From: Chondrosia reniformis
Lineage: Eukaryota > Porifera > Demospongiae > Chondrillida > Chondrillidae
Length of the DNA stretch: 64,000 nucleotides
Reading direction: 5' to 3'
Assembly (NCBI GenBank): GCA_947172415.1
Contig: OX359193.1
Location: 4,582,501-4,646,500 of the forward strand
The notes under the pieces were generated by a model, which was not told the DNA's origin, made no database searches, and was given only the letters and a program-made list of their open reading frames with translations. The position numbers and the translations under genes are program-made. Shown here in pieces: positions 2,882 through 39,659 of this stretch; positions within the stretch are counted from its first letter, which is position 1; each line of letters starts with the position of its first letter.

Positions 2882-3770
2882 CCATATCTAAGTCTGAGTA
2901 AGGGGTGTGATCCTATAGCTAAGGCTGAGTAAGGAGTGTGATCCTATAGCTAAGGCTGAGTAAGGGGTGTGGTCCTATAGCTAAGGCTGATTAAGGGGTG
3001 TGGTCCTATAGCTAAGGCTGAGTAAGGGGTGTGGTCCTATAGCTAAGGCTGAGTAAGGAGTATGGTTCTATATAGCTAAGGCTAAGTAAGGGGTGTGGTG
3101 CTATAGCTAAGGCTTAGTAAGGGGTTTGATCCTATAGCTAAGGCTGAGTAAGAGGTGTGGTCCTATAGCTAAGGCTGAGTAAGGAGTATGGTTCTATATA
3201 GCTAAGGCTAAGAAAGGGGTGTGGTCCTATAGCTAAGGCTGAGTAAGGAGTATGGTTCTATAGTAAAGCTAAGTAAGGGGTGTGGTCCTATAACTAAGGC
3301 TTAGTAAGGTGCATGGGTGGTCTTATAGCTAAGGCTGAGTAAGGGGTGTGGTTCTATAACTAAGGCTGAGTAAGGGGTGTGGTCCTATAGCTAAGGCTGA
3401 GTAAGGAGTATGGTTCTATATAGCTAAGGCTAAGAAAGGGGTGTGGTCCTATAGGTAAGGCTGAGTAAGGGGTGTGGTCCGATAGCTAACGCTGAGTAAG
3501 GGGTTTGATCCTATAGCTAAGGCTGAGTAAGGGGTGTGGTCCTATAACTAAGGCTGAGTAAGGGGTGTGGTCCTATAGCTAAGGCTAAGTAAGGAGTATG
3601 GTTCTATATAGCTAAGGCTAAGTAAGGGGTGTGGTCCTATAGCTAAGGCTTAGTAAGGTGTGTGGTCTTATAGCTAAGGCTAAGTAAGGGGTGCAGTTGT
3701 AGAGCTAAGGTAGAGTGAGGGGTTTGGTGTCCTATAGGCAGGGTAAAGTGAGGGAGTTAGGGGGTGTGGT
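2882..3770. repeat. 31-bp minisatellite (unit 1)
   Basis: Roughly 27-29 imperfect units built on CTATAGCTAAGGCTGAGTAA plus GGGGTGTGGTC. The plus strand is G-rich with GGGG and GTGG runs. It lies inside the predicted 2.4-kb first intron. Variants (AGTATGGTT, TAGTAAGG) recur in an irregular order. Confidence 0.9.
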
Positions 3771-4412
3771 CATCACATAGTGAGTACCTTGTATCCATGG
3801 TAAAATTAATGCGCATAAATATGCATCACTGTACATTAATCCTTTTCACACTGCATATGAATTCGACTCCTCGATGCCTAATAGTGTAAAACAAATAGTA
3901 TGGAACGTAAAGCCTGATGATACTGTCATACGGTATCATAATTAAAAACTTCGAATATAAATGGTTCATACATCCATTCGGTTGCGCATTTATATGCATA
4001 ATGTCCCAACGGTTCGGAGCGACAGCAGAGAGTCAGTCTTTGGGGCAAGCATATGTATACAAGCCCAACAAGAAAGCATTCAAAGTAACGTTGCTATATA
4101 CAAACCAAAACTCGCTCAAGACGCAAAACGTCTACAGTGTATATAGCCTAAATGCACAATGAATCTACAATTATCTCGCTCATTTTATTATGCCAAGAAT
4201 ACACATGGAATTTCATAACATACAATCGTTATTATCTATATAATGCTTGCATAACAAAACACTCTATATATACATGATTATCTTGCAAGTTATTGTTGGC
4301 AAAATGTTTGTTGGTAAGTTGACATAAGCAACATTAATATACTGTACACAATTATAGTATGTCTACTTGGTCTTCACACATTGATTTCTTTCATGTCTGT
4401 GTATAGAGTATC

Positions 4413-5150
4413 ATGAAATTAATTGGAAAGTTCCTTCCAACTGAAGGTAAACTGACAATGTGTAGTCATCGCTCCAAAAGATGTAAACATTGTATGAAAC
4501 ATAACCCCGGTAAGTCATGCACATTGTACACTGTGGTACACTGTTTAGTCCTACAAAGGCCTGCAATTAAAAAAGCAATTGGTCTATTGGCTGTTGCTAC
4601 CTTTATATTCTTTGAAATATACACACTTCAAGCTCAACTAGTAGCTAACTGTAAAGACCAACCTAGTGCTTTTGTTCAAACATGCTATGGTACTGCTTTG
4701 CATAATCCAACACAATACTCTGTCGATGCAAATCAAGAAAACTTAAACCGTTTGGTTTGCCGTGAGTATGCATACATTAATAGACTAAAGACGACATATG
4801 TTCGCTACCGAAAACGATTGCATACCCTTTTTCTTTATATTTCAAAACGTCGCTTTCATCGACCTTCGTGTCTGGCTTTGCTTCTACTGTTACTCCTCTT
4901 AAGTGGAGATGTTGAAGTCAATCCAGGCCCTACCACCAGTAAAGAAAGGCAGGATAATAAAGAATTGGATGCAGGTTTAATTCAAGATACCTCCGAAGAA
5001 AAACAAAAGCGAGAAGACAGCTATAAACAGTTAATCTCCATAGGGTCTAGTGGTGAACAAAGTATGCAAAGTTATTGCATCTCAATTGGATCACCCTTGC
5101 CAATTAAAATTGAACAGCAGTACACAACGGACATTGACAAGCACCCATAG
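4413..5150 (+). CDS. Helitron N-terminal module with 2A peptide (unit 1)
   Basis: 245 residues. A Cys/His-rich start (CSHRSKRCKHCMKH) is followed by a likely membrane segment (residues ~55-70) and a Leu-rich run directly before GDVEVNPGP (residues 165-173, bases 4905-4931). The last motif fits the 2A consensus D-V/I-E-x-N-P-G-P, at which ribosomes skip the Gly-Pro bond; release would fall between residues 172 and 173. The hydrophobic run could act as a signal or anchor for the upstream product. The frame ends in TAG at 5148, and the RepHel frame continues in the same phase right after it, so this is the N-terminus of one gene rather than a separate one. An acceptor at 4406 suggests an upstream exon. 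The membrane role is inferred. Confidence 0.75.
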   Translation: MKLIGKFLPTEGKLTMCSHRSKRCKHCMKHNPGKSCTLYTVVHCLVLQRPAIKKAIGLLAVATFIFFEIYTLQAQLVANCKDQPSAFVQTCYGTALHNPTQYSVDANQENLNRLVCREYAYINRLKTTYVRYRKRLHTLFLYISKRRFHRPSCLALLLLLLLLSGDVEVNPGPTTSKERQDNKELDAGLIQDTSEEKQKREDSYKQLISIGSSGEQSMQSYCISIGSPLPIKIEQQYTTDIDKHP

Positions 5151-5216
5151 GCAAAGAAAAGATTACCAATTAATGAGACAGAAAAACGTGATCAGCAGTT
5201 AAGCAAAAAAAGGACT

Positions 5217-8200
5217 TTGTCTCGAGCAAGATTCACAGCTGAAAAAAGTGAGCAACAACAACAGAGACTTCTGAGATCACGTGTTAATCAGGTTAGAAGA
5301 CTGAAGGAGGAAGATGAGAAAGCAAGGCAAGCCCAATTGGAAATCTTAAAATTTAGTGCCAGGCAAAGACTTCAGAAGGAAGATGACAATGCAAGGCAAA
5401 CGCGTTTGGAAGTCTTAAAGTTTAATGCCAGCCACAGACTGAATAAGGAAAATGAGACAGCAAGGCAAGCACGGTTGCAAGTCTTAAAGTGTAATGCCAG
5501 CCAGAGACTGAAGAACGAAGATAAGACAGCAAGGCAAGCACGGTTGCAAGTCTTAAAGTGTAATGCCAGCCAGAGACTGAAGAACGAAGGTAAGACAGCG
5601 AGGCAAGCACGATTGCAAGTCTTAAAGTGTAATGCCAGCCAGAGACTGAAGCAGGAAGATGAGACAGCAAGGCAAGCACGATTAGAAGCCATTAGACGAA
5701 ATTACAGAAAAAAAGTGGACAAAGAGGATGAGGCAAGCCGTGACAAAAGACTTCAGACTAAAGCAATGAATGTTCGACAGTACAGTGCCAAACAAAGTCT
5801 TGCACAAAAGGAAAATGACCGCGAGAAGGCAAGGATGAGGATGCAAACTATTCGCGGGAAACAAGCTACTTTAGCTGCTATGCAAGAACCATCCAGAAGG
5901 AAAGATGAAAAATTACAATTAACTGATGACAATGAGGAAAGCACAAAGACAGATGGTGTGAAAATTCCTGACCCATCAATATCGGTGAATTCTGTGGACA
6001 CTAAGCAGTTGATCAAGGCAGACATCACCGAGAAGAAAAGAAAACATTCAGCACATCACAACAAACTACCTGAGACAAACAGAGCCAAGTTCAGAAAAGT
6101 GGCCTGTGAAGGCCCTTCTTGTGTATGTACATCGTGTCATAAACTGTGCTATCAAATGCACGGAAAATTCTCAAAAGATGGCAATGAGTTTGTTGATTTT
6201 ATTAAGTTGGAATCTCCAGTGGACGAAAAAACCTGGTTTTGCACCAGATGTATATCCTCTTTGAAGAAAAGGGACATTCCAGGTAATGCTTTGGATAATA
6301 ACATGCGAGTCTCTGAAGTCCCCAAGGAGTTGCAAGGACTCAACAGCTTAGAGGAACGCTTAATTTCACGTGTTACTCCTTTTATGAAGCTGGTAGTGCT
6401 ACCACGTGGACGCCAGAGGGCAATTAGGGGTCAGGTCATCAACTTCCCCACCCCCATGACCAACACGGTAGACCAACTGCCACGTCTAGCTGAGGATACT
6501 GATATTGTATACGTGCAGCGTCCCAGTGAGTCAGAATGTGTGCCAGAGAGAGCAACTTCAGCCACAAGGACATACTACTGCTGTCGTTATCGAAAAGTAA
6601 TGCTAGCTTTGAATTGGCTGAAGGAAAATAATCCCATCTTCCATGATGTTAAGGTGGTTGATCCATCTGAGAAACAGTTTTCAGAGGAAGGTGACGAATG
6701 TCAGGCAGACCATGTTGAGGAGTCGGGTGTTGTGAGGAGCAACACATTGATACCTGACATACCCGTGTCCAAACTCATTCAGGATGGAGCATTTCCTGTT
6801 CATCAGTTGGAAAGAATTTCCTCAGCACCTGTGAGTGTTTTCAATGAGCCTCAACTGGAGCTAATGGCATTCCCTACTTTGTATCCCAATGGAAGAAATG
6901 GTTTTGGAACACATAGGAATGCCAAACTCTCTCCCTGGGACTACTTTCAAACCCGTGTCATGAGTAGTGATGCTAGATGGGCACGGCATCCATCTTACCT
7001 CTTTTGGGCTTGTAATATTGTAGAAGCATACAAGCTGCAAAGTAGCATTTCTGTTGCTCTACGTCTGAGGAATCCAGGAACTCACAATATGAACACCAAT
7101 AAAGTGGAAGATAAACATGAACAAAGCAAGGAACATTATCTCACAGCAGGTGATCTGAAGGGATCATCGGCAAAAGAAAATCCAGATGTACGTGAAAACT
7201 GCTACAGTTTCATGAGGGATATTCGTGGTACTGCAGCCTACTGGCAGTCAGCAAAAATCCATCTGTTCACAATGTTGCGTTCCCTTGGACCTCCAACATT
7301 CTTCATCACATTCAGTGCAGATGACCATCACTGGAAAGATCTCATGGTGGTTTTAGCCAACTGCAGTGGACGGAACCTGACTGAGGAGCAGGTGGACCTA
7401 CTAACTGATGAAGAGAGGAGAGACTTTATGGCCAGTAATCCTGTGGTTACTGCTTGCCATTTTGCACATCGCTTCCAATGTCTGGTGAAAGAAGTCATTA
7501 AAGGTTCAGGAAAGCCAATTGGAGAAGTGATTGATTTCTTCTGGAGAATTGAGTTTCAGTTGCGAGGATCACCACATGTTCATTCCTTGTGGTGGATTAA
7601 AGATGCTCCAGACTTGGACACCAAGGCAGGTAGTCAATCAGCTCCTGAGTTCATTGATAGGTACATATCCGTTCAAGTCCCAGATGAGGGCTGTGGAAAG
7701 GATGAACTCAGATTAACCATCCTTCGGGTCCAGCAGCACAAGCATACTGCTACTTGCCAGAAGACCAGCAAAAGGAAGAAAGAGTGTCGTTTTGACTTCC
7801 CCAGACCTTTGTCGTGTGAAACACGCCTGAAGAACAATAACGATGTAGGAAACAAGTCACGCTTTTACCTTCTTAAGCGGAACAAAGGGGAAGAAAATAT
7901 CAATGCTTTCAACATTCATCTGCTCCTTGCATGGCAGGCCAATATGGACATACAGTTAATTGGATCAGTTTATGGTACTGCATCGTACATTTGTTCTTAC
8001 ATGTGCAAGGGAGAAAGTGAAGAAGTGAAGAAGGCCATCAGAGATGCTCTCAACACTCTACCTGCTAATGCTTCAATTCGCAAAAAACTATCCAAAGTAG
8101 GCAATACTATGCTGTCACATCGAGAGCTTAGTGCCCAAGAGGCTGCCTACAGACTTTGCAATTTGCCACTGAATGACTCGACTAGGAAAGTAGTGTTTGT

Positions 8201-10109
8201 TAACACCGTCCGACCTGAAAAACGAACACGACTTCTCAAGAGCCGATCTGAACTAATTGAACTGGGAGATCATGACACTGCCATCTTCAACCAGGTTTGT
8301 TTGATGTATGCTGCAAGGCCAAAGGGAGATGACTTTGAAGAAATGACTCTGGCTTACTTTTCTGTGTGGTATGATACTATACCAAGGGAAGACAGTCGTA
8401 AAAAAGATGACTATACAGGACCCGGACGGCGATCGCAACCTCGATACAAGTTGCAAGATAATATGGGTTGGATCAAGTTAAGGACCAAACAGGCATGTCT
8501 ACGTACTCCGGTGATGACGCCCTCAAGCCATGGTGATGACTACTACTATAGTCTCATGTTACTGTACATTCCATGGAGGCAAGAAAAGGCTGACTTGCTC
8601 CAAAACCATGAAACCGCCATGGCTGCTTTCATTGCTCGTGAAAGTGAACTTAAAGTCCTCAATGCTCAACATGAAGCATTTGCAGAGGAAGTACAGCGAG
8701 CAGTGCAACAGCTACAGGCTGTAAAGGATGCCGCATACATGGATCTTGTGGCTCCTAATGTGCAACACGGAGAAAGAGAAGATGCCAAGCATCCAACGGA
8801 GGAGGCTGATGGAGGACTGTACAATGGAGAAAATTTTATAGCACAAGAGAATATGGAAGACTTGGCAGATGTAGCACCTACATTGCTGGAGGATTTTGAT
8901 GCCAGTGGTGCCATCTCTCGATCTCGCCTCACCGAGAAAGCATTTAGGGAGCTGATTCTGAGCCTAAATGCAAAACAGAGAGAGGCATTCGAGATTGTTG
9001 TCAGGTATACGGCAGAACTACATAAATACCATATGGGAACAGTATCATCTCCTCCAGAATGCTTCCACCTGTTCATTACAGGTGGGGCTGGAACAGGAAA
9101 ATCACACTTGATCCATGCCATCAGGGAGCATATTGAAAGATCAGTGCAGGGAAGCAAGGATTTCCATGGATGCATGGTCATGGCACCTACAGGAGTGGCT
9201 GCTTTTAACATCAATGGACTCACTATTCATCGAGCACTGAGTATGCAAGTGGAACATGGAAGGTCAGCGCATCAATTGCATTTGAGTGCTTTGGCCCTCA
9301 ATGAACTTCGTCGACTTTGGAAAGGAGTTCACACTATCATTGTAGACGAAATCAGCATGGTTTCTTACGAGGTACTCGTAGCTGTTCATCAAAGGCTTTG
9401 CGAGATCTTTGCTACAGATGACATTTTTGGAGGAGTTAATGTTATTGCTGTTGAGGATTTGTACCAACTGTCCCCTGTAAATGGACATTATATATTCAGC
9501 AGTGCAAAGGTGCAATCAAGGAGGCTTGCATCCCATTTGTGGAAAGACTTCTTCAGTATGATTGAATTGGAAGATAACATACGACAGCACAATGATCAGT
9601 CTTTCTCATCACTGCTGAATAGAATTCGAATAGGGGACCACACTCAGGAAGACATTGCCATCTTAGCAACTCGCAAGACATCCAACAATCAAGTGGATCT
9701 TTCGTCATCACCATTTTGCAATGCACTTAGACTGTTCCCTCGGGTTTCTGACTGTGAACTCTATAATTACCAGGAGCTGCACAAATTGACTTCTGCAACA
9801 GCGCAGTTGTTTGAAGCATCACATGTGATTTTGGAGAGTCGCAGATGCACACATGGGGCAGTATCCTATGAGCATATACGAGAAGAACTCATTCCCAATG
9901 ATGACAAAGAGTGTGGTGGCTTACCAAGGCGTTTGAAACTGGCTGTTGGGTCGGAAATTATGTTGAGAAGAAACATAAAATGCGGAGATGGACTTGTGAA
10001 TGGTGCTCGAGGTATCATAGTAGGAGTTAAATGGCCAGGAAACGTAAAAATCAACCAAGCCCAGGTGCACTACCTGAGTATGTTCATGATCCTCGAGTTG
10101 GACAACTAA
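5217..10109 (+). pseudogene. Helitron RepHel protein, main part (unit 1)
   Basis: About 1630 residues. Order: six to seven 23-residue charged repeats (residues ~31-190); a Cys-rich region (CVCTSCHKLC ... WFCTRC) like the DUF6570-type part of Helitron proteins; the Helitron-like N domain; the HUH Rep motif RGSPHVH (His 787 and 789); the paired catalytic tyrosines Y924 and Y928 (YICSY); then a PIF1-family helicase with Walker A GGAGTGKS (1289-1296), Walker B VDEIS (Asp 1377) and an NxIxVxDLYQLSPV motif. Rep nicks and joins DNA for rolling-circle transposition; the helicase unwinds it. The frame is open from 5151, just after a TAG, and has no ATG before 5766, so it depended on the upstream 2A module for its start. 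The frame is lost before helicase motif VI by a shift between about 10031 and 10076. Confidence 0.9.
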
Positions 10110-10192
10110 ACAAAGTTCCAATTGAAAATGGACACCAGGAAGTGGTGCCAATTGAACCAATGTCAGTCAGGTTCTATGGATGACAGGGTACT

Positions 10193-10897
10193 GTGCTTCA
10201 GAGAACACAGTTACCTCTCATTCTTTGTTGGGCTGCTACTCTACACAAGGTTCAAGGTCTGTCATTAGATGCAGCTGTGCTGGACCTGGGAGAAAAAGTG
10301 TTCGAACCAGGGATGGCATATGTGGCCTTGAGTCGTGTTAGGACTCTAGATGGTGTGGCTCTATCAAGCTTTGAACCACAGAAGGTCAAGGCTAACAAAC
10401 GAGTGCATGCAGAAATGGCCAGGTTACGGAAGAGAAGTGGTTCACATGATACATCAGACAATGAGTCACAAACATCCCACCTCTTGGTGCACAGTAGTTC
10501 CTCTCTATCCAACAAACCCAATCAACCAATGAACAGTTCCGTTCCTGTCGTTGCTACTCCAGTACCCTCAGTGCAGAGGAATTCTTCTCCACCCATCCAA
10601 ACCAACTCGCCAACCAAATCTGCTCCAGGTACACACATGCCCTCGGTGCAGAATAATTCTTCTTTAATAATCCAACCCCAGCCCCCAATCATTTCTGTTC
10701 CCCATGTTGCTTCACCAGTACTGTCACTTCAAGAAGAGTTAGAAACTATGGTGAACTGTGAAAATCCGGCTACTGATTTGATCAGCAATTGGGCAAAGTG
10801 TCATGAGGGTGATATTACAGCTACTTTGATAGAAGTAAATCAGCCATCCCGTGCAATTCTCAGCATGTTAAAATCAGGCTCAACCCACTGTTCTTAG
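10193..10897 (+). pseudogene. Helitron helicase C-terminus, OTU lost (unit 1)
   Basis: Continues the helicase in the second frame: Helitron-typical VRFYG then a TGA (10181-10183), then [12 protein letters not shown], the motif VI region ([22 protein letters not shown]) and a Ser/Pro/Asn-rich linker of about 130 residues. The open frame is counted from a GTG at 10193, which is not a real start. At 10865 the reading runs over a deletion junction and ends after a short foreign tail ([10 protein letters not shown]) read backwards through the antisense pseudogene. The frame change near 10031-10076 and the TGA are in all three units. Confidence 0.85.
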
Positions 10898-16377: not shown

Positions 16378-17115
16378 ATGAAATTAATTGGAAAGTTCCT
16401 TCCAACTGAAGGTAAACTGACAATGTGTAGTCATCGCTCCAAAAGATGTAAACATTGTATGAAACATAACCCCGGTAAGTCATGCACATTGTACACTGTG
16501 GTACACTGTTTAGTCCTACAAAGGCCTGCAATTAAAAAAGCAATTGGTCTATTGGCTGTTGCTACCTTTATATTCTTTGAAATATACACACTTCAAGCTC
16601 AACTAGTAGCTAACTGTAAAGACCAACCTAGTGCTTTTGTTCAAACATGCTATGGTACTGCTTTGCATAATCCAACACAATACTCTGTCGATGCAAATCA
16701 AGAAAACTTAAACCGTTTGGTTTGCCGTGAGTATGCATACATTAATAGACTAAAGACGACATATGTTCGCTACCGAAAACGATTGCATACCCTTTTTCTT
16801 TATATTTCAAAACGTCGCTTTCATCGACCTTCGTGTCTGGCTTTGCTTCTACTGTTACTCCTCTTAAGTGGAGATGTTGAAGTCAATCCAGGCCCTACCA
16901 CCAGTAAAGAAAGGCAGGATAATAAAGAATTGGATGCAGGTTTAATTCAAGATACCTCCGAAGAAAAACAAAAGCGAGAAGACAGCTATAAACAGTTAAT
17001 CTCCATAGGGTCTAGTGGTGAACAAAGTATGCAAAGTTATTGCATCTCAATTGGATCACCCTTGCCAATTAAAATTGAACAGCAGTACACAACGGACATT
17101 GACAAGCACCCATAG
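16378..17115 (+). CDS. Helitron N-terminal module with 2A peptide (unit 2)
   Basis: Identical 245-residue product to unit 1; 2A motif at 16870-16896; same terminal TAG followed by the RepHel frame in phase. Confidence 0.75.
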   Translation: MKLIGKFLPTEGKLTMCSHRSKRCKHCMKHNPGKSCTLYTVVHCLVLQRPAIKKAIGLLAVATFIFFEIYTLQAQLVANCKDQPSAFVQTCYGTALHNPTQYSVDANQENLNRLVCREYAYINRLKTTYVRYRKRLHTLFLYISKRRFHRPSCLALLLLLLLLSGDVEVNPGPTTSKERQDNKELDAGLIQDTSEEKQKREDSYKQLISIGSSGEQSMQSYCISIGSPLPIKIEQQYTTDIDKHP

Positions 17116-17181
17116 GCAAAGAAAAGATTACCAATTAATGAGACAGAAAAACGTGATCAGCAGTTAAGCAAAAAAAGGACT

Positions 17182-20100
17182 TTGTCTCGAGCAAGATTCA
17201 CAGCTGAAAAAAGTGAGCAACAACAACAGAGACTTCTGAGATCACGTGTTAATCAGGTTAGAAGACTGAAGGAGGAAGATGAGAAAGCAAGGCAAGCCCA
17301 ATTGGAAATCTTAAAATTTAGTGCCAGGCAAAGACTTCAGAAGGAAGATGACAATGCAAGGCAAACGCGTTTGGAAGTCTTAAAGTTTAATGCCAGCCAC
17401 AGACTGAATAAGGAAAATGAGACAGCAAGGCAAGCACGGTTGCAAGTCTTAAAGTGTAATGCCAGCCAGAGACTGAAGAACGAAGATAAGACAGCAAGGC
17501 AAGCACGGTTGCAAGTCTTAAAGTGTAATGCCAGCCAGAGACTGAAGAACGAAGGTAAGACAGCGAGGCAAGCACGATTGCAAGTCTTAAAGTGTAATGC
17601 CAGCCAGAGACTGAAGCAGGAAGATGAGACAGCAAGGCAAGCACGATTAGAAGCCATTAGACGAAATTACAGAAAAAAAGTGGACAAAGAGGATGAGGCA
17701 AGCCGTGACAAAAGACTTCAGACTAAAGCAATGAATGTTCGACAGTACAGTGCCAAACAAAGTCTTGCACAAAAGGAAAATGACCGCGAGAAGGCAAGGA
17801 TGAGGATGCAAACTATTCGCGGGAAACAAGCTACTTTAGCTGCTATGCAAGAACCATCCAGAAGGAAAGATGAAAAATTACAATTAACTGATGACAATGA
17901 GGAAAGCACAAAGACAGATGGTGTGAAAATTCCTGACCCATCAATATCGGTGAATTCTGTGGACACTAAGCAGTTGATCAAGGCAGACATCACCGAGAAG
18001 AAAAGAAAACATTCAGCACATCACAACAAACTACCTGAGACAAACAGAGCCAAGTTCAGAAAAGTGGCCTGTGAAGGCCCTTCTTGTGTATGTACATCGT
18101 GTCATAAACTGTGCTATCAAATGCACGGAAAATTCTCAAAAGATGGCAATGAGTTTGTTGATTTTATTAAGTTGGAATCTCCAGTGGACGAAAAAACCTG
18201 GTTTTGCACCAGATGTATATCCTCTTTGAAGAAAAGGGACATTCCAGGTAATGCTTTGGATAATAACATGCGAGTCTCTGAAGTCCCCAAGGAGTTGCAA
18301 GGACTCAACAGCTTAGAGGAACGCTTAATTTCACGTGTTACTCCTTTTATGAAGCTGGTAGTGCTACCACGTGGACGCCAGAGGGCAATTAGGGGTCAGG
18401 TCATCAACTTCCCCACCCCCATGACCAACACGGTAGACCAACTGCCACGTCTAGCTGAGGATACTGATATTGTATACGTGCAGCGTCCCAGTGAGTCAGA
18501 ATGTGTGCCAGAGAGAGCAACTTCAGCCACAAGGACATACTACTGCTGTCGTTATCGAAAAGTAATGCTAGCTTTGAATTGGCTGAAGGAAAATAATCCC
18601 ATCTTCCATGATGTTAAGGTGGTTGATCCATCTGAGAAACAGTTTTCAGAGGAAGGTGACGAATGTCAGGCAGACCATGTTGAGGAGTCGGGTGTTGTGA
18701 GGAGCAACACATTGATACCTGACATACCCGTGTCCAAACTCATTCAGGATGGAGCATTTCCTGTTCATCAGTTGGAAAGAATTTCCTCAGCACCTGTGAG
18801 TGTTTTCAATGAGCCTCAACTGGAGCTAATGGCATTCCCTACTTTGTATCCCAATGGAAGAAATGGTTTTGGAACACATAGGAATGCCAAACTCTCTCCC
18901 TGGGACTACTTTCAAACCCGTGTCATGAGTAGTGATGCTAGATGGGCACGGCATCCATCTTACCTCTTTTGGGCTTGTAATATTGTAGAAGCATACAAGC
19001 TGCAAAGTAGCATTTCTGTTGCTCTACGTCTGAGGAATCCAGGAACTCACAATATGAACACCAATAAAGTGGAAGATAAACATGAACAAAGCAAGGAACA
19101 TTATCTCACAGCAGGTGATCTGAAGGGATCATCGGCAAAAGAAAATCCAGATGTACGTGAAAACTGCTACAGTTTCATGAGGGATATTCGTGGTACTGCA
19201 GCCTACTGGCAGTCAGCAAAAATCCATCTGTTCACAATGTTGCGTTCCCTTGGACCTCCAACATTCTTCATCACATTCAGTGCAGATGACCATCACTGGA
19301 AAGATCTCATGGTGGTTTTAGCCAACTGCAGTGGACGGAACCTGACTGAGGAGCAGGTGGACCTACTAACTGATGAAGAGAGGAGAGACTTTATGGCCAG
19401 TAATCCTGTGGTTACTGCTTGCCATTTTGCACATCGCTTCCAATGTCTGGTGAAAGAAGTCATTAAAGGTTCAGGAAAGCCAATTGGAGAAGTGATTGAT
19501 TTCTTCTGGAGAATTGAGTTTCAGTTGCGAGGATCACCACATGTTCATTCCTTGTGGTGGATTAAAGATGCTCCAGACTTGGACACCAAGGCAGGTAGTC
19601 AATCAGCTCCTGAGTTCATTGATAGGTACATATCCGTTCAAGTCCCAGATGAGGGCTGTGGAAAGGATGAACTCAGATTAACCATCCTTCGGGTCCAGCA
19701 GCACAAGCATACTGCTACTTGCCAGAAGACCAGCAAAAGGAAGAAAGAGTGTCGTTTTGACTTCCCCAGACCTTTGTCGTGTGAAACACGCCTGAAGAAC
19801 AATAACGATGTAGGAAACAAGTCACGCTTTTACCTTCTTAAGCGGAACAAAGGGGAAGAAAATATCAATGCTTTCAACATTCATCTGCTCCTTGCATGGC
19901 AGGCCAATATGGACATACAGTTAATTGGATCAGTTTATGGTACTGCATCGTACATTTGTTCTTACATGTGCAAGGGAGAAAGTGAAGAAGTGAAGAAGGC
20001 CATCAGAGATGCTCTCAACACTCTACCTGCTAATGCTTCAATTCGCAAAAAACTATCCAAAGTAGGCAATACTATGCTGTCACATCGAGAGCTTAGTGCC

Positions 20101-22074
20101 CAAGAGGCTGCCTACAGACTTTGCAATTTGCCACTGAATGACTCGACTAGGAAAGTAGTGTTTGTTAACACCGTCCGACCTGAAAAACGAACACGACTTC
20201 TCAAGAGCCGATCTGAACTAATTGAACTGGGAGATCATGACACTGCCATCTTCAACCAGGTTTGTTTGATGTATGCTGCAAGGCCAAAGGGAGATGACTT
20301 TGAAGAAATGACTCTGGCTTACTTTTCTGTGTGGTATGATACTATACCAAGGGAAGACAGTCGTAAAAAAGATGACTATACAGGACCCGGACGGCGATCG
20401 CAACCTCGATACAAGTTGCAAGATAATATGGGTTGGATCAAGTTAAGGACCAAACAGGCATGTCTACGTACTCCGGTGATGACGCCCTCAAGCCATGGTG
20501 ATGACTACTACTATAGTCTCATGTTACTGTACATTCCATGGAGGCAAGAAAAGGCTGACTTGCTCCAAAACCATGAAACCGCCATGGCTGCTTTCATTGC
20601 TCGTGAAAGTGAACTTAAAGTCCTCAATGCTCAACATGAAGCATTTGCAGAGGAAGTACAGCGAGCAGTGCAACAGCTACAGGCTGTAAAGGATGCCGCA
20701 TACATGGATCTTGTGGCTCCTAATGTGCAACACGGAGAAAGAGAAGATGCCAAGCATCCAACGGAGGAGGCTGATGGAGGACTGTACAATGGAGAAAATT
20801 TTATAGCACAAGAGAATATGGAAGACTTGGCAGATGTAGCACCTACATTGCTGGAGGATTTTGATGCCAGTGGTGCCATCTCTCGATCTCGCCTCACCGA
20901 GAAAGCATTTAGGGAGCTGATTCTGAGCCTAAATGCAAAACAGAGAGAGGCATTCGAGATTGTTGTCAGGTATACGGCAGAACTACATAAATACCATATG
21001 GGAACAGTATCATCTCCTCCAGAATGCTTCCACCTGTTCATTACAGGTGGGGCTGGAACAGGAAAATCACACTTGATCCATGCCATCAGGGAGCATATTG
21101 AAAGATCAGTGCAGGGAAGCAAGGATTTCCATGGATGCATGGTCATGGCACCTACAGGAGTGGCTGCTTTTAACATCAATGGACTCACTATTCATCGAGC
21201 ACTGAGTATGCAAGTGGAACATGGAAGGTCAGCGCATCAATTGCATTTGAGTGCTTTGGCCCTCAATGAACTTCGTCGACTTTGGAAAGGAGTTCACACT
21301 ATCATTGTAGACGAAATCAGCATGGTTTCTTACGAGGTACTCGTAGCTGTTCATCAAAGGCTTTGCGAGATCTTTGCTACAGATGACATTTTTGGAGGAG
21401 TTAATGTTATTGCTGTTGAGGATTTGTACCAACTGTCCCCTGTAAATGGACATTATATATTCAGCAGTGCAAAGGTGCAATCAAGGAGGCTTGCATCCCA
21501 TTTGTGGAAAGACTTCTTCAGTATGATTGAATTGGAAGATAACATACGACAGCACAATGATCAGTCTTTCTCATCACTGCTGAATAGAATTCGAATAGGG
21601 GACCACACTCAGGAAGACATTGCCATCTTAGCAACTCGCAAGACATCCAACAATCAAGTGGATCTTTCGTCATCACCATTTTGCAATGCACTTAGACTGT
21701 TCCCTCGGGTTTCTGACTGTGACCTCTATAATTACCAGGAGCTGCACAAATTGACTTCTGCAACAGCGCAGTTGTTTGAAGCATCACATGTGATTTTGGA
21801 GAGTCGCAGATGCACACATGGGGCAGTATCCTATGAGCATATACGAGAAGAACTCATTCCCAATGATGACAAAGAGTGTGGTGGCTTACCAAGGCGTTTG
21901 AAACTGGCTGTTGGGTCGGAAATTATGTTGAGAAGAAACATAAAATGCGGAGATGGACTTGTGAATGGTGCTCGAGGTATCATAGTAGGAGTTAAATGGC
22001 CAGGAAACGTAAAAATCAACCAAGCCCAGGTGCACTACCTGAGTATGTTCATGATCCTCGAGTTGGACAACTAA
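17182..22074 (+). pseudogene. Helitron RepHel protein, main part (unit 2)
   Basis: Same domains and same breaks as unit 1: HUH motif near 19537, tyrosines near 19951 and 19963, Walker A at 21046. The only amino-acid change I see from unit 1 is Glu to Asp near 21722. Confidence 0.9.
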
Positions 22075-28342: not shown

Positions 28343-29080
28343 ATGAAATTAATTGGAAAGTTCCTTCCAACTGAAGGTAAACTGACAATGTGTAGTCATC
28401 GCTCCAAAAGATGTAAACATTGTATGAAACATAACCCCGGTAAGTCATGCACATTGTACACTGTGGTACACTGTTTAGTCCTACAAAGGCCTGCAATTAA
28501 AAAAGCAATTGGTCTATTGGCTGTTGCTACCTTTATATTCTTTGAAATATACACACTTCAAGCTCAACTAGTAGCTAACTGTAAAGACCAACCTAGTGCT
28601 TTTGTTCAAACATGCTATGGTACTGCTTTGCATAATCCAACACAATACTCTGTCGATGCAAATCAAGAAAACTTAAACCGTTTGGTTTGCCGTGAGTATG
28701 CATACATTAATAGACTAAAGACGACATATGTTCGCTACCGAAAACGATTGCATACCCTTTTTCTTTATATTTCAAAACGTCGCTTTCATCGACCTTCGTG
28801 TCTGGCTTTGCTTCTACTGTTACTCCTCTTAAGTGGAGATGTTGAAGTCAATCCAGGCCCTACCACCAGTAAAGAAAGGCAGGATAATAAAGAATTGGAT
28901 GCAGGTTTAATTCAAGATACCTCCGAAGAAAAACAAAAGCGAGAAGACAGCTATAAACAGTTAATCTCCATAGGGTCTAGTGGTGAACAAAGTATGCAAA
29001 GTTATTGCATCTCAATTGGATCACCCTTGCCAATTAAAATTGAACAGCAGTACACAACGGACATTGACAAGCACCCATAG
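28343..29080 (+). CDS. Helitron N-terminal module with 2A peptide (unit 3)
   Basis: Identical 245-residue product to unit 1; 2A motif at 28835-28861; same terminal TAG followed by the RepHel frame in phase. Confidence 0.75.
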   Translation: MKLIGKFLPTEGKLTMCSHRSKRCKHCMKHNPGKSCTLYTVVHCLVLQRPAIKKAIGLLAVATFIFFEIYTLQAQLVANCKDQPSAFVQTCYGTALHNPTQYSVDANQENLNRLVCREYAYINRLKTTYVRYRKRLHTLFLYISKRRFHRPSCLALLLLLLLLSGDVEVNPGPTTSKERQDNKELDAGLIQDTSEEKQKREDSYKQLISIGSSGEQSMQSYCISIGSPLPIKIEQQYTTDIDKHP

Positions 29081-29146
29081 GCAAAGAAAAGATTACCAAT
29101 TAATGAGACAGAAAAACGTGATCAGCAGTTAAGCAAAAAAAGGACT

Positions 29147-32100
29147 TTGTCTCGAGCAAGATTCACAGCTGAAAAAAGTGAGCAACAACAACAGAGACTT
29201 CTGAGATCACGTGTTAATCAGGTTAGAAGACTGAAGGAGGAAGATGAGAAAGCAAGGCAAGCCCAATTGGAAATCTTAAAATTTAGTGCCAGGCAAAGAC
29301 TTCAGAAGGAAGATGACAATGCAAGGCAAACGCGTTTGGAAGTCTTAAAGTTTAATGCCAGCCACAGACTGAATAAGGAAAATGAGACAGCAAGGCAAGC
29401 ACGGTTGCAAGTCTTAAAGTGTAATGCCAGCCAGAGACTGAAGAACGAAGATAAGACAGCAAGGCAAGCACGGTTGCAAGTCTTAAAGTGTAATGCCAGC
29501 CAGAGACTGAAGAACGAAGGTAAGACAGCGAGGCAAGCACGATTGCAAGTCTTAAAGTGTAATGCCAGCCAGAGACTGAAGCAGGAAGATGAGACAGCAA
29601 GGCAAGCACGATTAGAAGCCATTAGACGAAATTACAGAAAAAAAGTGGACAAAGAGGATGAGGCAAGCCGTGACAAAAGACTTCAGACTAAAGCAATGAA
29701 TGTTCGACAGTACAGTGCCAAACAAAGTCTTGCACAAAAGGAAAATGACCGCGAGAAGGCAAGGATGAGGATGCAAACTATTCGCGGGAAACAAGCTACT
29801 TTAGCTGCTATGCAAGAACCATCCAGAAGGAAAGATGAAAAATTACAATTAACTGATGACAATGAGGAAAGCACAAAGACAGATGGTGTGAAAATTCCTG
29901 ACCCATCAATATCGGTGAATTCTGTGGACACTAAGCAGTTGATCAAGGCAGACATCACCGAGAAGAAAAGAAAACATTCAGCACATCACAACAAACTACC
30001 TGAGACAAACAGAGCCAAGTTCAGAAAAGTGGCCTGTGAAGGCCCTTCTTGTGTATGTACATCGTGTCATAAACTGTGCTATCAAATGCACGGAAAATTC
30101 TCAAAAGATGGCAATGAGTTTGTTGATTTTATTAAGTTGGAATCTCCAGTGGACGAAAAAACCTGGTTTTGCACCAGATGTATATCCTCTTTGAAGAAAA
30201 GGGACATTCCAGGTAATGCTTTGGATAATAACATGCGAGTCTCTGAAGTCCCCAAGGAGTTGCAAGGACTCAACAGCTTAGAGGAACGCTTAATTTCACG
30301 TGTTACTCCTTTTATGAAGCTGGTAGTGCTACCACGTGGACGCCAGAGGGCAATTAGGGGTCAGGTCATCAACTTCCCCACCCCCATGACCAACACGGTA
30401 GACCAACTGCCACGTCTAGCTGAGGATACTGATATTGTATACGTGCAGCGTCCCAGTGAGTCAGAATGTGTGCCAGAGAGAGCAACTTCAGCCACAAGGA
30501 CATACTACTGCTGTCGTTATCGAAAAGTAATGCTAGCTTTGAATTGGCTGAAGGAAAATAATCCCATCTTCCATGATGTTAAGGTGGTTGATCCATCTGA
30601 GAAACAGTTTTCAGAGGAAGGTGACGAATGTCAGGCAGACCATGTTGAGGAGTCGGGTGTTGTGAGGAGCAACACATTGATACCTGACATACCCGTGTCC
30701 AAACTCATTCAGGATGGAGCATTTCCTGTTCATCAGTTGGAAAGAATTTCCTCAGCACCTGTGAGTGTTTTCAATGAGCCTCAACTGGAGCTAATGGCAT
30801 TCCCTACTTTGTATCCCAATGGAAGAAATGGTTTTGGAACACATAGGAATGCCAAACTCTCTCCCTGGGACTACTTTCAAACCCGTGTCATGAGTAGTGA
30901 TGCTAGATGGGCACGGCATCCATCTTACCTCTTTTGGGCTTGTAATATTGTAGAAGCATACAAGCTGCAAAGTAGCATTTCTGTTGCTCTACGTCTGAGG
31001 AATCCAGGAACTCACAATATGAACACCAATAAAGTGGAAGATAAACATGAACAAAGCAAGGAACATTATCTCACAGCAGGTGATCTGAAGGGATCATCGG
31101 CAAAAGAAAATCCAGATGTACGTGAAAACTGCTACAGTTTCATGAGGGATATTCGTGGTACTGCAGCCTACTGGCAGTCAGCAAAAATCCATCTGTTCAC
31201 AATGTTGCGTTCCCTTGGACCTCCAACATTCTTCATCACATTCAGTGCAGATGACCATCACTGGAAAGATCTCATGGTGGTTTTAGCCAACTGCAGTGGA
31301 CGGAACCTGACTGAGGAGCAGGTGGACCTACTAACTGATGAAGAGAGGAGAGACTTTATGGCCAGTAATCCTGTGGTTACTGCTTGCCATTTTGCACATC
31401 GCTTCCAATGTCTGGTGAAAGAAGTCATTAAAGGTTCAGGAAAGCCAATTGGAGAAGTGATTGATTTCTTCTGGAGAATTGAGTTTCAGTTGCGAGGATC
31501 ACCACATGTTCATTCCTTGTGGTGGATTAAAGATGCTCCAGACTTGGACACCAAGGCAGGTAGTCAATCAGCTCCTGAGTTCATTGATAGGTACATATCC
31601 GTTCAAGTCCCAGATGAGGGCTGTGGAAAGGATGAACTCAGATTAACCATCCTTCGGGTCCAGCAGCACAAGCATACTGCTACTTGCCAGAAGACCAGCA
31701 AAAGGAAGAAAGAGTGTCGTTTTGACTTCCCCAGACCTTTGTCGTGTGAAACACGCCTGAAGAACAATAACGATGTAGGAAACAAGTCACGCTTTTACCT
31801 TCTTAAGCGGAACAAAGGGGAAGAAAATATCAATGCTTTCAACATTCATCTGCTCCTTGCATGGCAGGCCAATATGGACATACAGTTAATTGGATCAGTT
31901 TATGGTACTGCATCGTACATTTGTTCTTACATGTGCAAGGGAGAAAGTGAAGAAGTGAAGAAGGCCATCAGAGATGCTCTCAACACTCTACCTGCTAATG
32001 CTTCAATTCGCAAAAAACTATCCAAAGTAGGCAATACTATGCTGTCACATCGAGAGCTTAGTGCCCAAGAGGCTGCCTACAGACTTTGCAATTTGCCACT

Positions 32101-34039
32101 GAATGACTCGACTAGGAAAGTAGTGTTTGTTAACACCGTCCGACCTGAAAAACGAACACGACTTCTCAAGAGCCGATCTGAACTAATTGAACTGGGAGAT
32201 CATGACACTGCCATCTTCAACCAGGTTTGTTTGATGTATGCTGCAAGGCCAAAGGGAGATGACTTTGAAGAAATGACTCTGGCTTACTTTTCTGTGTGGT
32301 ATGATACTATACCAAGGGAAGACAGTCGTAAAAAAGATGACTATACAGGACCCGGACGGCGATCGCAACCTCGATACAAGTTGCAAGATAATATGGGTTG
32401 GATCAAGTTAAGGACCAAACAGGCATGTCTACGTACTCCGGTGATGACGCCCTCAAGCCATGGTGATGACTACTACTATAGTCTCATGTTACTGTACATT
32501 CCATGGAGGCAAGAAAAGGCTGACTTGCTCCAAAACCATGAAACCGCCATGGCTGCTTTCATTGCTCGTGAAAGTGAACTTAAAGTCCTCAATGCTCAAC
32601 ATGAAGCATTTGCAGAGGAAGTACAGCGAGCAGTGCAACAGCTACAGGCTGTAAAGGATGCCGCATACATGGATCTTGTGGCTCCTAATGTGCAACACGG
32701 AGAAAGAGAAGATGCCAAGCATCCAACGGAGGAGGCTGATGGAGGACTGTACAATGGAGAAAATTTTATAGCACAAGAGAATATGGAAGACTTGGCAGAT
32801 GTAGCACCTACATTGCTGGAGGATTTTGATGCCAGTGGTGCCATCTCTCGATCTCGCCTCACCGAGAAAGCATTTAGGGAGCTGATTCTGAGCCTAAATG
32901 CAAAACAGAGAGAGGCATTCGAGATTGTTGTCAGGTATACGGCAGAACTACATAAATACCATATGGGAACAGTATCATCTCCTCCAGAATGCTTCCACCT
33001 GTTCATTACAGGTGGGGCTGGAACAGGAAAATCACACTTGATCCATGCCATCAGGGAGCATATTGAAAGATCAGTGCAGGGAAGCAAGGATTTCCATGGA
33101 TGCATGGTCATGGCACCTACAGGAGTGGCTGCTTTTAACATCAATGGACTCACTATTCATCGAGCACTGAGTATGCAAGTGGAACATGGAAGGTCAGCGC
33201 ATCAATTGCATTTGAGTGCTTTGGCCCTCAATGAACTTCGTCGACTTTGGAAAGGAGTTCACACTATCATTGTAGACGAAATCAGCATGGTTTCTTACGA
33301 GGTACTCGTAGCTGTTCATCAAAGGCTTTGCGAGATCTTTGCTACAGATGACATTTTTGGAGGAGTTAATGTTATTGCTGTTGAGGATTTGTACCAACTG
33401 TCCCCTGTAAATGGACATTATATATTCAGCAGTGCAAAGGTGCAATCAAGGAGGCTTGCATCCCATTTGTGGAAAGACTTCTTCAGTATGATTGAATTGG
33501 AAGATAACATACGACAGCACAATGATCAGTCTTTCTCATCACTGCTGAATAGAATTCGAATAGGAGACCACACTCAGGAAGACATTGCCATCTTAGCAAC
33601 TCGCAAGACATCCAACAATCAAGTGGATCTTTCGTCATCACCATTTTGCAATGCACTTAGACTGTTCCCTCGGGTTTCTGACTGTGACCTCTATAATTAC
33701 CAGGAGCTGCACAAATTGACTTCTGCAACAGCGCAGTTGTTTGAAGCATCACATGTGATTTTGGAGAGTCGCAGATGCACACATGGGGCAGTATCCTATG
33801 AGCATATACGAGAAGAACTCATTCCCAATGATGATAAAGAGTGTGGTGGCTTACCAAGGCGTTTGAAACTGGCTGTTGGGTCGGAAATTATGTTGAGAAG
33901 AAACATAAAATGCGGAGATGGACTTGTGAATGGTGCTCGAGGTATCATAGTAGGAGTTAAATGGCCAGGAAACGTAAAAATCAACCAAGCCCAGGTGCAC
34001 TACCTGAGTATGTTCATGATCCTCGAGTTGGACAACTAA
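29147..34039 (+). pseudogene. Helitron RepHel protein, main part (unit 3)
   Basis: Protein identical to unit 2. Two silent differences are visible near the 3' end (about 33565 and 33834). Same upstream TAG and same loss of frame before motif VI. This unit keeps the longest downstream coding part. Confidence 0.9.
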
Positions 34040-34122
34040 ACAAAGTTCCAATTGAAAATGGACACCAGGAAGTGGTGCCAATTGAACCAATGTCAGTCAG
34101 GTTCTATGGATGACAGGGTACT

Positions 34123-35457
34123 GTGCTTCAGAGAACACAGTTACCTCTCATTCTTTGTTGGGCTGCTACTCTACACAAGGTTCAAGGTCTGTCATTAGAT
34201 GCAGCTGTGCTGGACCTGGGAGAAAAAGTGTTCGAACCAGGGATGGCATATGTGGCCTTGAGTCGTGTTAGGACTCTAGATGGTGTGGCTCTATCAAGCT
34301 TTGAACCACAGAAGGTCAAGGCTAACAAACGAGTGCATGCAGAAATGGCCAGGTTACGGAAGAGAAGTGGTTCACATGATACATCAGACAATGAGTCACA
34401 AACATCCCACCTCTTGGTGCACAGTAGTTCCTCTCTATCCAACAAACCCAATCAACCAATGAACAGTTCCGTTCCTGTCGTTGCTACTCCAGTACCCTCA
34501 GTGCAGAGGAATTCTTCTCCACCCATCCAAACCAACTCGCCAACCAAATCTGCTCCAGGTACACACATGCCCTCGGTGCAGAATAATTCTTCTTTAATAA
34601 TCCAACCCCAGCCCCCAATCATTTCTGTTCCCCATGTTGCTTCACCAGTACTGTCACTTCAAGAAGAGTTAGAAACTATGGTGAACTGTGAAAATCCGGC
34701 TACTGATTTGATCAGCAATTGGGCAAAGTGTCATGAGGGTGATATTACAGCTACTTTGATAGAAGTAAATCAGCCATCCCGTGCAATTCTCAGCAGCTTC
34801 CACAGTACAGATGTTGGCGTGAGGGAAAAACTTTTACCTGCCTTTACATTGTTTTATGTTCCAGTGTACACTACAGGAAGTGGAAACTGCATGTACAACA
34901 TGATTTCATTAACCCTTACTGGAACAGAGCAGTACATGTCTCACTTGAGGTTTCTGACTGCCTACAGCCTCATTACACATCGAGAACATATGTTTGAGGT
35001 CATTCAACCAACTGCAAGAATTCTACCCTTAAATGGACCAAGTGCAGCTTCAGTTTTTAAGGAAGCAGAAATTCAGTGGTTGGACCTCGTTCGCAGTTCA
35101 CTACAAGATCGATCCTGGGGGAATCAATTTCATTTACACGCCCTCTCTATTGCTTTGGAGAGGTCAATTTGCCTGTATGGAGTTATGCGTAACAGAACGG
35201 TTCAACATCAAGGCAGGCAGTTGCAACGCATTGATGTGACTACTTCAGCAGCTGAATTACAGAACCTCTTTGATGCTAAAGACAAGCGACTGAACAACAG
35301 CATTATTTACCATCCAAATGTGGAAAAATATTCCCCACTTTTAGGATTCTTTGATGCAAGCCACTTCACTGCTATTTTACCAGCAAATGCATCACGTAAC
35401 TCCAAAGAATTTTCTCCATTCACCACCTTTGCCTCCCTCTGGACTCCTGAGGAATGA
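34123..35457 (+). pseudogene. Helitron helicase C-terminus plus OTU protease domain (unit 3)
   Basis: 444 residues in the same frame as the tails in units 1 and 2, but intact across the deletion point. After helicase motif VI (residues ~17-60) and a Ser/Pro-rich linker comes an OTU-like cysteine protease domain: [11 protein letters not shown] with the presumed catalytic Cys 256, and ASHFTAI with the presumed catalytic His 414. OTU domains at this position are known in the Helentron/Helitron2 branch, where their role is unclear. The TGA upstream (34111-34113) still separates this part from the main RepHel frame, so it is not a free gene. Confidence 0.85.
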
Positions 35458-35935
35458 TATCTAGAGTGTGTGTTTCAATAACTATCTAACTATTTATGAC
35501 AATCTTTGGAAGTGACATACGTTAATGGTACATGCAAATATGGCTAGCTGCCAAAGCGTGATGTATATGGCAGTGGGCGGAAGACCTTTTATCATGACAT
35601 TGATATTGGCAAAAGAGAGAGACCCAGATTGTGTTAGACTAGCATTTTGAGCAGTCATATTTTTAAGAATCTCACTTAACTTTAATTGACATTTAACAAA
35701 ATAAACTTTTTGTTTAGTTTCTATTACAAGTAGCATAATGATGATCCAGTGATGACTATATATACATACATTAGTATTACAAGGTCAACAGAACAAGTAA
35801 TTTACAAAATTGTATGTAACAAATCTCCCTATTATAATATAATGAATAATTGAAACTATTTGTTTTGGATTACGTACACAAATATGAATTTATCATTTTA
35901 CCATTTTAATAATTAATAGACGATTGTACAACAAA
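35458..35935. other. Non-coding stretch after the OTU frame
   Basis: AT-rich. It should contain the 3' UTR of the Helitron gene, but no clear poly(A) signal or Helitron 3' terminus (hairpin plus CTRR) could be assigned with confidence. Confidence 0.4.
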
Positions 35936-36364
35936 CAAGTATTTCGAGTTTAAAAACTCGTGGGGCTGCCGCCCCCCGAATCAACTCGAACTACTTGGCC
36001 GTATCGTTGGCATTTAATATATATATTCGTAATACTAACGATTGAAGACGCTTAAGTGTCCTGAACACTATAAATAGCGACAGAAAAGCTTCGTTAACTA
36101 AAGCTTCCTGAACGCCGCCATTTGCAAAACGATGTATTGATGTATAAATTAAGTATTATAAAGTATTATAATAGTTGCGTATATATGAACCTGTATTAAA
36201 TATATATCGACGTATAAATAAAGTGTTATAACAGTTGCGTATGAACCTGTATTATATATATAGATATATATATATATATCTATATATATATCTTTCCGTA
36301 ACATGAAGCCGTACAACGTAATCGGCAAATGAAAACAATATAAGGGGCTGCCTGTGGCAGCCCC
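35936..36364. mobile_element. Hairpin-ended dispersed repeat, fullest copy
   Basis: Starts with inverted arms (CAAGTATTTCGAGTT at 35936 and AACTCGAACTACTTG at 35983, one mismatch) enclosing a GC hairpin (GGGGC/GCCCC, 35962-35975). It ends in a perfect 9-bp hairpin GGGGCTGCC-TGT-GGCAGCCCC (36344-36364). The interior matches 611-858 and 41887-42134. No coding capacity. Probably a non-autonomous element; class undetermined. Confidence 0.6.
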
Positions 36365-37105
36365 TAAAAAGAAGAGAAATTTCGGTATGAATTTAAATTT
36401 TACATAATAGATAGGTATACACATAGTTAATGCGTTGGTATAATTATTTATTTAATCGCTATATGTATAATTGTATAATTATATATGTGTTATTGTATAT
36501 TATTTGTGTGTTTATATATATTTGTGTTTATATAGTATATGTGTAATTATATTGTATATATTTGCACATGCATATGCATGTCTTTTACACATTTTCATGT
36601 GACTGATACATGCCTTTGTAAAGTATGTGTGTAGTAGCTGACACTCTCCTGCACAATTTAGCAGGATAATAGGTGTAAGAGCTAATACTTTTAACAGACT
36701 AAGTAAGAACTGTTCATGAATGTATTAGCATTCTACAAACGTAGACATAATGTCTTCATGTTTGTGCAACTTTTGCACACTATATTAGTGAGTACTTTAT
36801 ACTCACTTGGTCCAACTAACTGTGTTTGGTTACAGTACATTGATTCTAATTTTACAGTTTCCTTTAATGCAGGCACTTCCAATACATGCACTAAACATGT
36901 CACACTGGCTACCACAGCCATCTGTACATCCTCCATTACATCCAGGGCTGGTAACATGCTTACGGGCATCCACTTGACCCTCGAAAGCAAATACCTCCCT
37001 GTGGGATGCATTCATGCCTACCTCCGCGTGGTGCATCCTGGGATCACTCTAGCTATTAGGGTGCTGCTAAATGGCATGAGTAAAGGTGACATCTATGAAA
37101 TACGC
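36365..37105. other. AT-rich intergenic sequence
   Basis: Contains TA-rich runs (36420-36600). A plus-strand frame at 36716-37177 and Cys-rich minus-strand frames overlap it, but none shows a recognisable domain or splice context. I see nothing firm here. Confidence 0.4.
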
Positions 37106-37171
37106 CAAGTAGTTCGAGTTTGCATAGGGGCGCCAGGCGCCCCCACGACTTTTTTAAACTCGAACTACTTG
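37106..37171. repeat. Nested perfect palindrome
   Basis: Outer arms of 16 bp match perfectly (CAAGTAGTTCGAGTTT at 37106-37121, complement at 37156-37171). Inside is a perfect 8-bp GC hairpin (GGGGCGCC-A-GGCGCCCC, 37127-37143). It is the same motif as the left end of the repeat at 35936, here alone. Confidence 0.85.
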
Positions 37172-38045
37172 TTTTAATATTGAAAAACTGCCTAAAAATC
37201 TCAAGTTGCTAGTGAAAGTGAAAAACACAAACTGCAAAGAGTTAATCTATATCTCTCAACAAGATGACGGACACTCGGCTGACTTTCCTTTCCTTTGCGT
37301 TGGTCACGGAAAACAAAACATTTTTGAAACCGTGTTTACTAGAACAATGCCATGTAAAGTCTGTTCAAAGAGGTTTTCCGGACATTTAATGACAAACTAA
37401 TTTTTAACCCTTCATCTTGTACGCGACAATATATTGTTAATAAGGGCTATCTTGCACAATTACATAACTTTGGTTGATCTACGTATAGATGTTTATTGTA
37501 GGAAATTATACAACATAAGAAATTGCAACAAAATGGCTACCTTTTTTGACTAAAAGTGTTTGCCTAAATGCTTTGAATAGTAGCGAGAAGTGGTAATTTT
37601 TCGTACTCGTCTTTGCTGTTACATCATGTTTCATGCCAGAAATGGTAGCAGGGACCAATATACAAAGATATACAGGAGTTTCAGGAGAACACACATACAA
37701 AATTCTCTTTGGTTTGCCACCTACAGAATAATCATGTGGTGACTACATCCTGGTCACTGGTGAGGATTTCAGCTTCCTTGAAATACTTACAAATTGTTTC
37801 TACATTAGCCATTGACCGAGTCTTGGCCACCCACCTAATTGCCATCAGTAGGCAAAGAAAGAAAGAAAAAAAGAAAGACGGGTCTAATTTTACACCAACC
37901 CAAGCATTTATAAGTATAGTTCTGCAATATACTTATAAATGTACAGTACATATAGTAAGAACTGACAAATATAATGAAAAAATGAAGTATTTTTGGAAAG
38001 GGTCATCTTTTAAATTAACTATGTTGCTTCTTCATCCTCTTGGCT
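37172..38045. other. Region with no supported gene
   Basis: Short open frames on both strands (for example 37206-37400 plus, 37506-37700 minus) lack start context and known motifs. The minus-strand frame could be decayed coding sequence but I cannot name it. Confidence 0.35.
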
Positions 38046-38231
38046 TCATTTGCTCTCTGCCATGCCGCCTGAATCCTTCTCAAATGCCTCCAAAATCGCC
38101 CTATTGTCTGCATATGGACACAAGATCTGGTTGGAGTGTCTCAAAATACGATGGATCTGGCCATCCGGTGTTTTGTCACTGGCTGTGCGTAGCCGGTGAC
38201 AAACGGGGCAGCGACACTTCCCATAAAGAGC
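38046..38231 (-). other. Exon G: C-terminal Cys/His exon of the antisense pseudogene
   Basis: Acceptor TTACAG precedes 62 codons, phase 0, ending TGA. Cys pairs (KCRCPVC) and later His/Cys (HRILRH, LCPY) suggest a zinc-binding fold. The frame is intact. The preceding exon ends CTACAG followed by GCAAGT, which fits a GC-AG intron. Confidence 0.55.
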
Positions 38232-39178: not shown

Positions 39179-39535
39179 CAGCTATGGCCATCTCCTCATC
39201 ATCCTCATTGAAGACAGTGGTGACATTTGGCAATTCATTGGAGGCAGTGGTGACATTTGGCAATTCATTGGAGGCAGTGGTGACATTTGGCAATTCATTG
39301 GAGGCAGTGGTGACATTTGGCAATTCATTGTAGGCAGTGGTGACATTTGGCAATTCATTAGAGGCAGTGGTGACATTTGGCAATTCATTGGAGAAAGTGG
39401 TGACATTTGGCAATTCATTGTAGGCAGTGGTGACATTTGGCAATTCATTGGACACAGTGGTGACATTTGGCAATTCATTGGAGGCAGTGGTGACATTTGG
39501 CAATTCATTGGAAGCAGTGGTGACATTTGACAATT
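39179..39535 (-). repeat. Exon E: eleven 10-residue repeats (30 bp)
   Basis: A 357-bp exon, phase 1 at both ends, coding eleven copies of ELPNVTTASN-like repeats and ending EDDEEMAIAG. The repeats hold Asn-Val-Thr, a possible N-glycosylation site if exported. The frame is open throughout, although neighbouring exons are broken. Confidence 0.75.
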
Positions 39536-39659
39536 CTAAAGAGTGAAAAAAACAAGTCAGAAGTTACTTGCTGTATCTGTACCAGCATCACTCCAGTTGT
39601 CTATTATTATTATGATTTAATTGTGCCCTGTGAAACCTTCTGAAAAATAATAATTTCAC

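Follow-up and report, generated by a model that had tools for sequence, protein, structure and literature searches.

A 2A sequence precedes the Rep/helicase protein (RepHel) in several Helitron families of the sponge Chondrosia reniformis, and it is most probably a built-in part of these elements that would free RepHel from a short and variable leader. The window, a stretch of 64,000 nucleotides (contig OX359193.1, positions 4,582,501 to 4,646,500), contains three units of one family (A; the names A to E were coined in this analysis). The leader ORF of the first unit, in which GDVEVNPGP follows a leucine run, shares its reading frame with the RepHel ORF (Table 1). An earlier note on this DNA had described the arrangement correctly, with the omission of the TAG codon that lies between the two parts. 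Its proposal that the 2A belongs to Helitrons is borne out by the position of the motif upstream of Rep at 69 of 126 genome places, its presence in divergent families, and four unbroken frames.

Table 1. Positions of features in the window, and of the unbroken 2A–RepHel frames elsewhere in the genome.
Feature	Position	Strand	Remarks
Leader ORF with 2A, unit 1	4407..5150	+	Stop-to-stop, 247 codons, ends in TAG
Leucine run LALLLLLLLLS before 2A	4872..4904	+	LLLLSG-like viral StopGo/2A upstream class
2A core GDVEVNPGP, unit 1	4905..4931	+	Motif at 14 genome places
In-frame TAG between 2A and RepHel	5148..5150	+	In tandem copies only
RepHel ORF, unit 1	5151..10109	+	1652 codons; frame stops before last helicase motifs
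Helitron_like_N (Rep) domain	6942..7589	+	Pfam E 2.8e-29; HUH motif HVH at 7575-7583
YICSYMCK, two-tyrosine Rep motif	7986..8009	+	
PIF1-like helicase domain	9066..9650	+	Pfam PIF1 E 2.2e-24
Helicase C-terminal part, unit 1	10184..10897	+	Different frame
2A core, unit 2	16870..16896	+	
RepHel ORF, unit 2	17116..22074	+	
2A core, unit 3	28835..28861	+	
RepHel ORF, unit 3	29081..34039	+	
Helicase C-terminus and OTU-like domain	34114..35457	+	Unit 3 only; OTU E 4.1e-7
Unbroken frame, L069	C1:5089806		2523 codons; 2A and Rep in one ORF, sequence read directly
Unbroken frame, L070	C4:3326414		2510 codons; 2A and Rep in one ORF, sequence read directly
Unbroken frame, L071	C1:4486537		2312 codons; 2A and Rep in one ORF, sequence read directly
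Unbroken frame, fourth locus	C5:3600949		2555 codons; inferred: leader and Rep matches both report frame 2555, distance a multiple of 3

The three units are arranged head to tail over positions 1–42136 of the window with a period of 11965, and the first base of the window is already inside the array. The units differ by 1–3 mismatches per aligned unit (12.3 or 10.9 kb aligned), and the array may be an assembly artefact. Unit 3 is 5381 bases longer than units 1 and 2 (34796–40174), and because other genome copies match part of this extra stretch, units 1 and 2 seem to have suffered internal deletions. A minisatellite-like repeat is located upstream of the leader ORF (2884–3754) and at the equivalent place in units 2 and 3. 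The homology of two family A copies, which have different flanks, starts at ATTAATTAAATTCGG, which gives an approximate position of the 5′ terminus. Helitrons are characterized by a 5′ TC, a 3′ CTRR, a 3′ hairpin, and insertion between A and T.

The searched genome has 117,379,552 bases (117.38 Mb) in 15 contigs. The exact 26-base motif is present at 14 places, three of them in the window, and its reversed control at none. The loose 2A pattern, GAYRTNGARNNNAAYCCNGGNCC, matches 126 places (91 + 35), as opposed to one for the reversed pattern. The Helitron_like_N profile gave 133 matches, which merge into 119 Rep loci, and 69 of these loci have a pattern 2A upstream. Viewed from the 2A, 69 of the 126 places have a same-strand Rep match 550–3386 bp downstream, whereas moving each 2A by 20–300 kb in 1000 runs gave a mean of 1.07 and a maximum of 7 of 126. 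Within 8 kb, the 2A is on the wrong side of Rep at 1 of the 126 places and on the opposite strand at 4. Of the 20 Rep matches whose open frame spans 1000 codons or more, 19 have a pattern 2A no more than 4 kb upstream. The earlier note had named recurrence in unbroken copies with conserved spacing as support for its idea; the recurrence was found, whereas the spacing is loose, with a median of 2188 bp and quartiles of 1978–2443 bp in the 69 pairs.

At four loci, the 2A and RepHel lie in a single unbroken frame of 2312–2555 codons. In the unbroken ORFs that were read, the 2A is positioned at codon 263–290 counted from the preceding stop. Two of these loci, L069 and L070, contain Rep, PIF1 helicase (E 5.5e-27 and 4.6e-21, respectively), and OTU, and the HUH motif (HVH or HYH) and the tyrosine motif were found in B1, B2, and C. 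Most copies of the 2A Helitrons are decayed, and the case for a common frame is based on the four loci. The distance between 2A and Rep corresponds to the same frame in 21 of the 69 pairs and to the other two frames in 26 and 22, which is the chance level, and a shared frame was therefore dropped as general evidence. Nine of the 19 long-frame Reps with a 2A are in frame with it, and three of the nine are the window copies with the TAG. In L069, a family B RepHel, STPR repeats directly follow the 2A (PF21107, E 2.4e-25, five stretches, codons 328–399 and beyond); the STPR score in the window is 20.2 bits, under the cut-off of 27.

The TAG separates the leader ORF from the RepHel ORF in all three window units. 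In the alignment of the exact-motif places, the TAG column contains a sense codon in 11 of 14, the other three being the window units. A text-pattern recheck recovered the sense codon in 8 of the 11, and the 3 unmatched places each have a neighbouring substitution. An intron ending at the TAG is an unneeded explanation, since relatives carry a sense codon in this column. The RepHel frame of the window copies is interrupted again near 10.1 kb. Because of the in-frame TAG and this break, the window copies are unable to yield by plain translation the leader protein and RepHel that the earlier note had predicted from one mRNA; after the 2A, they would produce only a 73-residue peptide starting with proline before reaching the TAG. 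The three copies are best seen as defective descendants. In the family A copy at C2:4156806 (L025), the frame is open for at least 507 codons past the 2A, and the Rep domain is in a different frame from the 2A (distance 2051). No fully unbroken family A element was found among the copies in this genome.

The Rep domains are 67% identical between A and B1 and 66% between C and E, whereas A or B1 share 25–28% with C or E, and lineage D shares 25–26% with the rest. The 2A is thus present in two Rep lineages that are about as distant from each other as each is from lineage D, which probably lacks it. The 2A core is DVEVNPGP in A, DVELNPGP in B, and DIESNPGP in C; one copy of E has DVEQNPGP and another has DMEQNPGP. 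The upstream sequences of six Rep loci without a pattern 2A (L072–L077) were read. L073 has a decayed 2A, GDVELNPGL, and in L074, which belongs to family B, the 2A region has been deleted; the upstream sequences of L076 and L077 contain no trace of a 2A. In the two copies of lineage D that were read (L072 and L075), roughly 4 kb of upstream sequence contains nothing resembling a 2A, and both copies are damaged, so that a genuine absence of the 2A from this lineage is likely but not certain. The earlier note had considered that related Helitrons without a 2A would speak against its idea; this does not apply to the 2A families and is seen in lineage D, in two of two copies.

In StopGo, the nascent chain is released at NPG and translation resumes from the proline (PMC12846837). 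A ribosome on the Helitron mRNA would first synthesize the leader, ending in the leucine run and NPG; the next peptide bond would be skipped, and RepHel starting with proline would be made as a separate protein. The cores of A, B, and C fit the consensus (D/G/C/N)(V/I)ExNPGP. The hexapeptides upstream of viral StopGo cores include a named LLLLSG-like class with (A/S/C)G before the D, and tested examples of motifs 1, 3, 4, and 6, of which motif 6 is L-rich, are described as active in vitro (PMC12846837). The hexapeptide LLLLSG of family A agrees in sequence with this active viral context, and B1 has LLLLAG, whereas B2 and C have GG before the D, outside the (A/S/C)G of the viral class. The Helitron 2A is probably active, and skipping is expected with most confidence in A and B1, whose hexapeptides fit the viral class.

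The earlier note had taken the leucine run as a pointer to a signal sequence. By itself the run is no argument for one, because LLLLSG-like sequences are a known upstream context of active viral 2A (PMC12846837). The run does precede the 2A, and N-terminal 2A-like sequences of sea urchins are described as both skipping and targeting (PMC4981915). The leucine run and 2A could similarly double as a signal sequence, in the manner of sea urchin NLRs, so that unskipped RepHel would be secretory and skipped RepHel cytosolic or nuclear. We consider this improbable. In the unbroken ORFs, the run would be N-terminal only if translation began at a late ATG (the closest upstream ATGs in frame are 141–171 bp before the 2A in B1, B2, and family copy C1); otherwise it is internal. 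It is also hard to see what purpose secretion of the transposase would serve, and leucine runs commonly accompany 2A sequences with no known role in targeting (PMC12846837). The leader itself may be a putative small membrane or secreted protein.

The leucine run and 2A are constrained at the protein level, with dN/dS values, resting on 26–29 codons, of 0.20 (B1–B2) and 0.15 and 0.13 (C pairs); the Rep region of B1–B2 gives 0.13. This constraint argues against the 2A being a functionless fossil of a non-LTR retrotransposon that was captured and spread by Helitrons, as does its presence in two Rep lineages that are only 25–28% identical. DNA capture by Helitrons occurs (PMC4778049), and the same genome contains an APE-type element with a 2A, a PHD finger, and an APE-like endonuclease (L016). 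Judged from 150 scored among 1688 reverse transcriptase candidates, a reverse transcriptase lies no more than 6 kb downstream of the 2A at 14 or more of the 126 places, but none has both Rep and reverse transcriptase downstream, and 43 have neither. A functionless fossil is very improbable, and a functional 2A within the Helitrons remains the preferred reading. The motif is short and a stop separates the two parts in the window, but chance NPGP matches are ruled out by the reversed-pattern and shifted-position controls, and an unrelated host exon adjoining the elements is hardly credible given the unbroken frames and the 14 places at which the 2A block travels with the element.

The leader is less constrained than the leucine run and 2A. 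In the B1–B2 and C pairs, its dN/dS is 0.52–0.54 in the later part and 0.68–0.75 in the early part, and the two parts give 1.33 and 0.44 in the close family B pair B2–L020. In the seven distinct copies of the window's family, the 245 codons from 4413 are stop-free with a pN/pS of 0.69, which rises to 1.16 over codons 61–147, suggesting at best weak constraint on this leader; the ATG at 4413 is missing from two of the seven. Between families, with synonymous sites near saturation, leader identity at positions −45 to −17 is 50–57% for B2 and C (pS 0.79–0.92, pN 0.25–0.28), 25–29% for B1 and C, 4–11% for A and B or C, and at most 7% for E and all others. Local alignments of positions −100 to −17 compared with shuffles gave z of 15.0–17.6 for B2 with family copies C1, C2, and C3, 4.0 for B1–C1, 3.1 for A–C1, and at most 0.6 for the other tested pairs. 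Families A and B thus have Reps that are 67% alike and unrelated leaders, and B2 and C have a leader in common and Reps that are far apart.

Because the 2A is retained where leaders change from family to family, its constant job would be to provide RepHel with a leader-free N-terminus from one promoter and one mRNA, with RepHel being co-made with a family-specific leader protein. A more tentative idea, possible but not favoured, is that the leader and 2A form an ancient exchangeable front end of animal Helitrons, in which leaders are swapped between families and serve as a second protein of transposition, made together with RepHel. The early leader DNA of B1 (L069) and B2 (L071) has a dS of 0.08, far below the 0.8–1.0 of the remainder, which suggests that their 5′ ends were recently exchanged. 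CGWG-rich repeats are present in the leaders of L069, L070, and L071, which belong to two Helitron lineages, and in other copies a second frame (PVAGV) is open across the DNA of these repeats as well.

Viruses and some retrotransposons are known to place a 2A ahead of a separate protein. Odon et al. are said to have reported 2A sequences in APE-type non-LTR retrotransposons in 2013. These resemble the sponge sequences in being carried by a transposon near the N-terminus of its main protein, but they precede PHD and endonuclease/reverse transcriptase domains rather than Rep, PIF1 helicase, and OTU. The likeness to the L-rich class of viral 2A/StopGo lies in the core D(V/I)ExNPGP and the L-rich hexapeptide ending in (A/S/C)G; there the setting is a viral polyprotein, and here a rolling-circle DNA transposon (PMC12846837). 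The 2A-like signals of sea urchin NLRs are also near the N-terminus and contain a hydrophobic stretch, but they belong to host immune genes, are positioned at the very N-terminus, and are described as targeting in experiments, whereas the present case is built from sequence (PMC4981915). Helraiser shares the HUH Rep with two tyrosines and the fused helicase, and its protein has an N-terminal NLS and a zinc-finger-like motif, with no 2A mentioned in the consulted part of the account (PMC4778049). The sponge Helitrons have the leader, the 2A, and OTU in addition.

Natural StopGo has been called largely confined to viral decoding (PMC12846837). If the Helitron 2A is active, rolling-circle DNA transposons would join viruses and retrotransposons as users of natural 2A recoding, and Helitrons could make two proteins from a single ORF. 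We offer the hypothesis that an accessory protein is made in a fixed ratio with the Helitron transposase. The origin of cellular 2A sequences also becomes testable, because non-LTR elements and two Helitron lineages of one genome carry them. A search of the open-licence PMC literature, a scope outside which Repbase reports and most subscription papers lie, found no report of a 2A in any Helitron among the papers listed. Among genome contigs, of which the window's own genome was the only animal one available, no relatives were found elsewhere. The viral contigs contained no relative for query P0002 and one 28% match in the helicase region for alignment A1, and the best 5 of 332 matches in phage records were solely to the helicase. 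The window additionally contains pieces of a non-LTR retrotransposon on the minus strand at 44814–47878, whose ORFs match endonuclease at E 4.1e-16 and reverse transcriptase at E 4.2e-22. An ORF at 52543–53745, likewise on the minus strand, matches GIY-YIG at E 1.9e-9.
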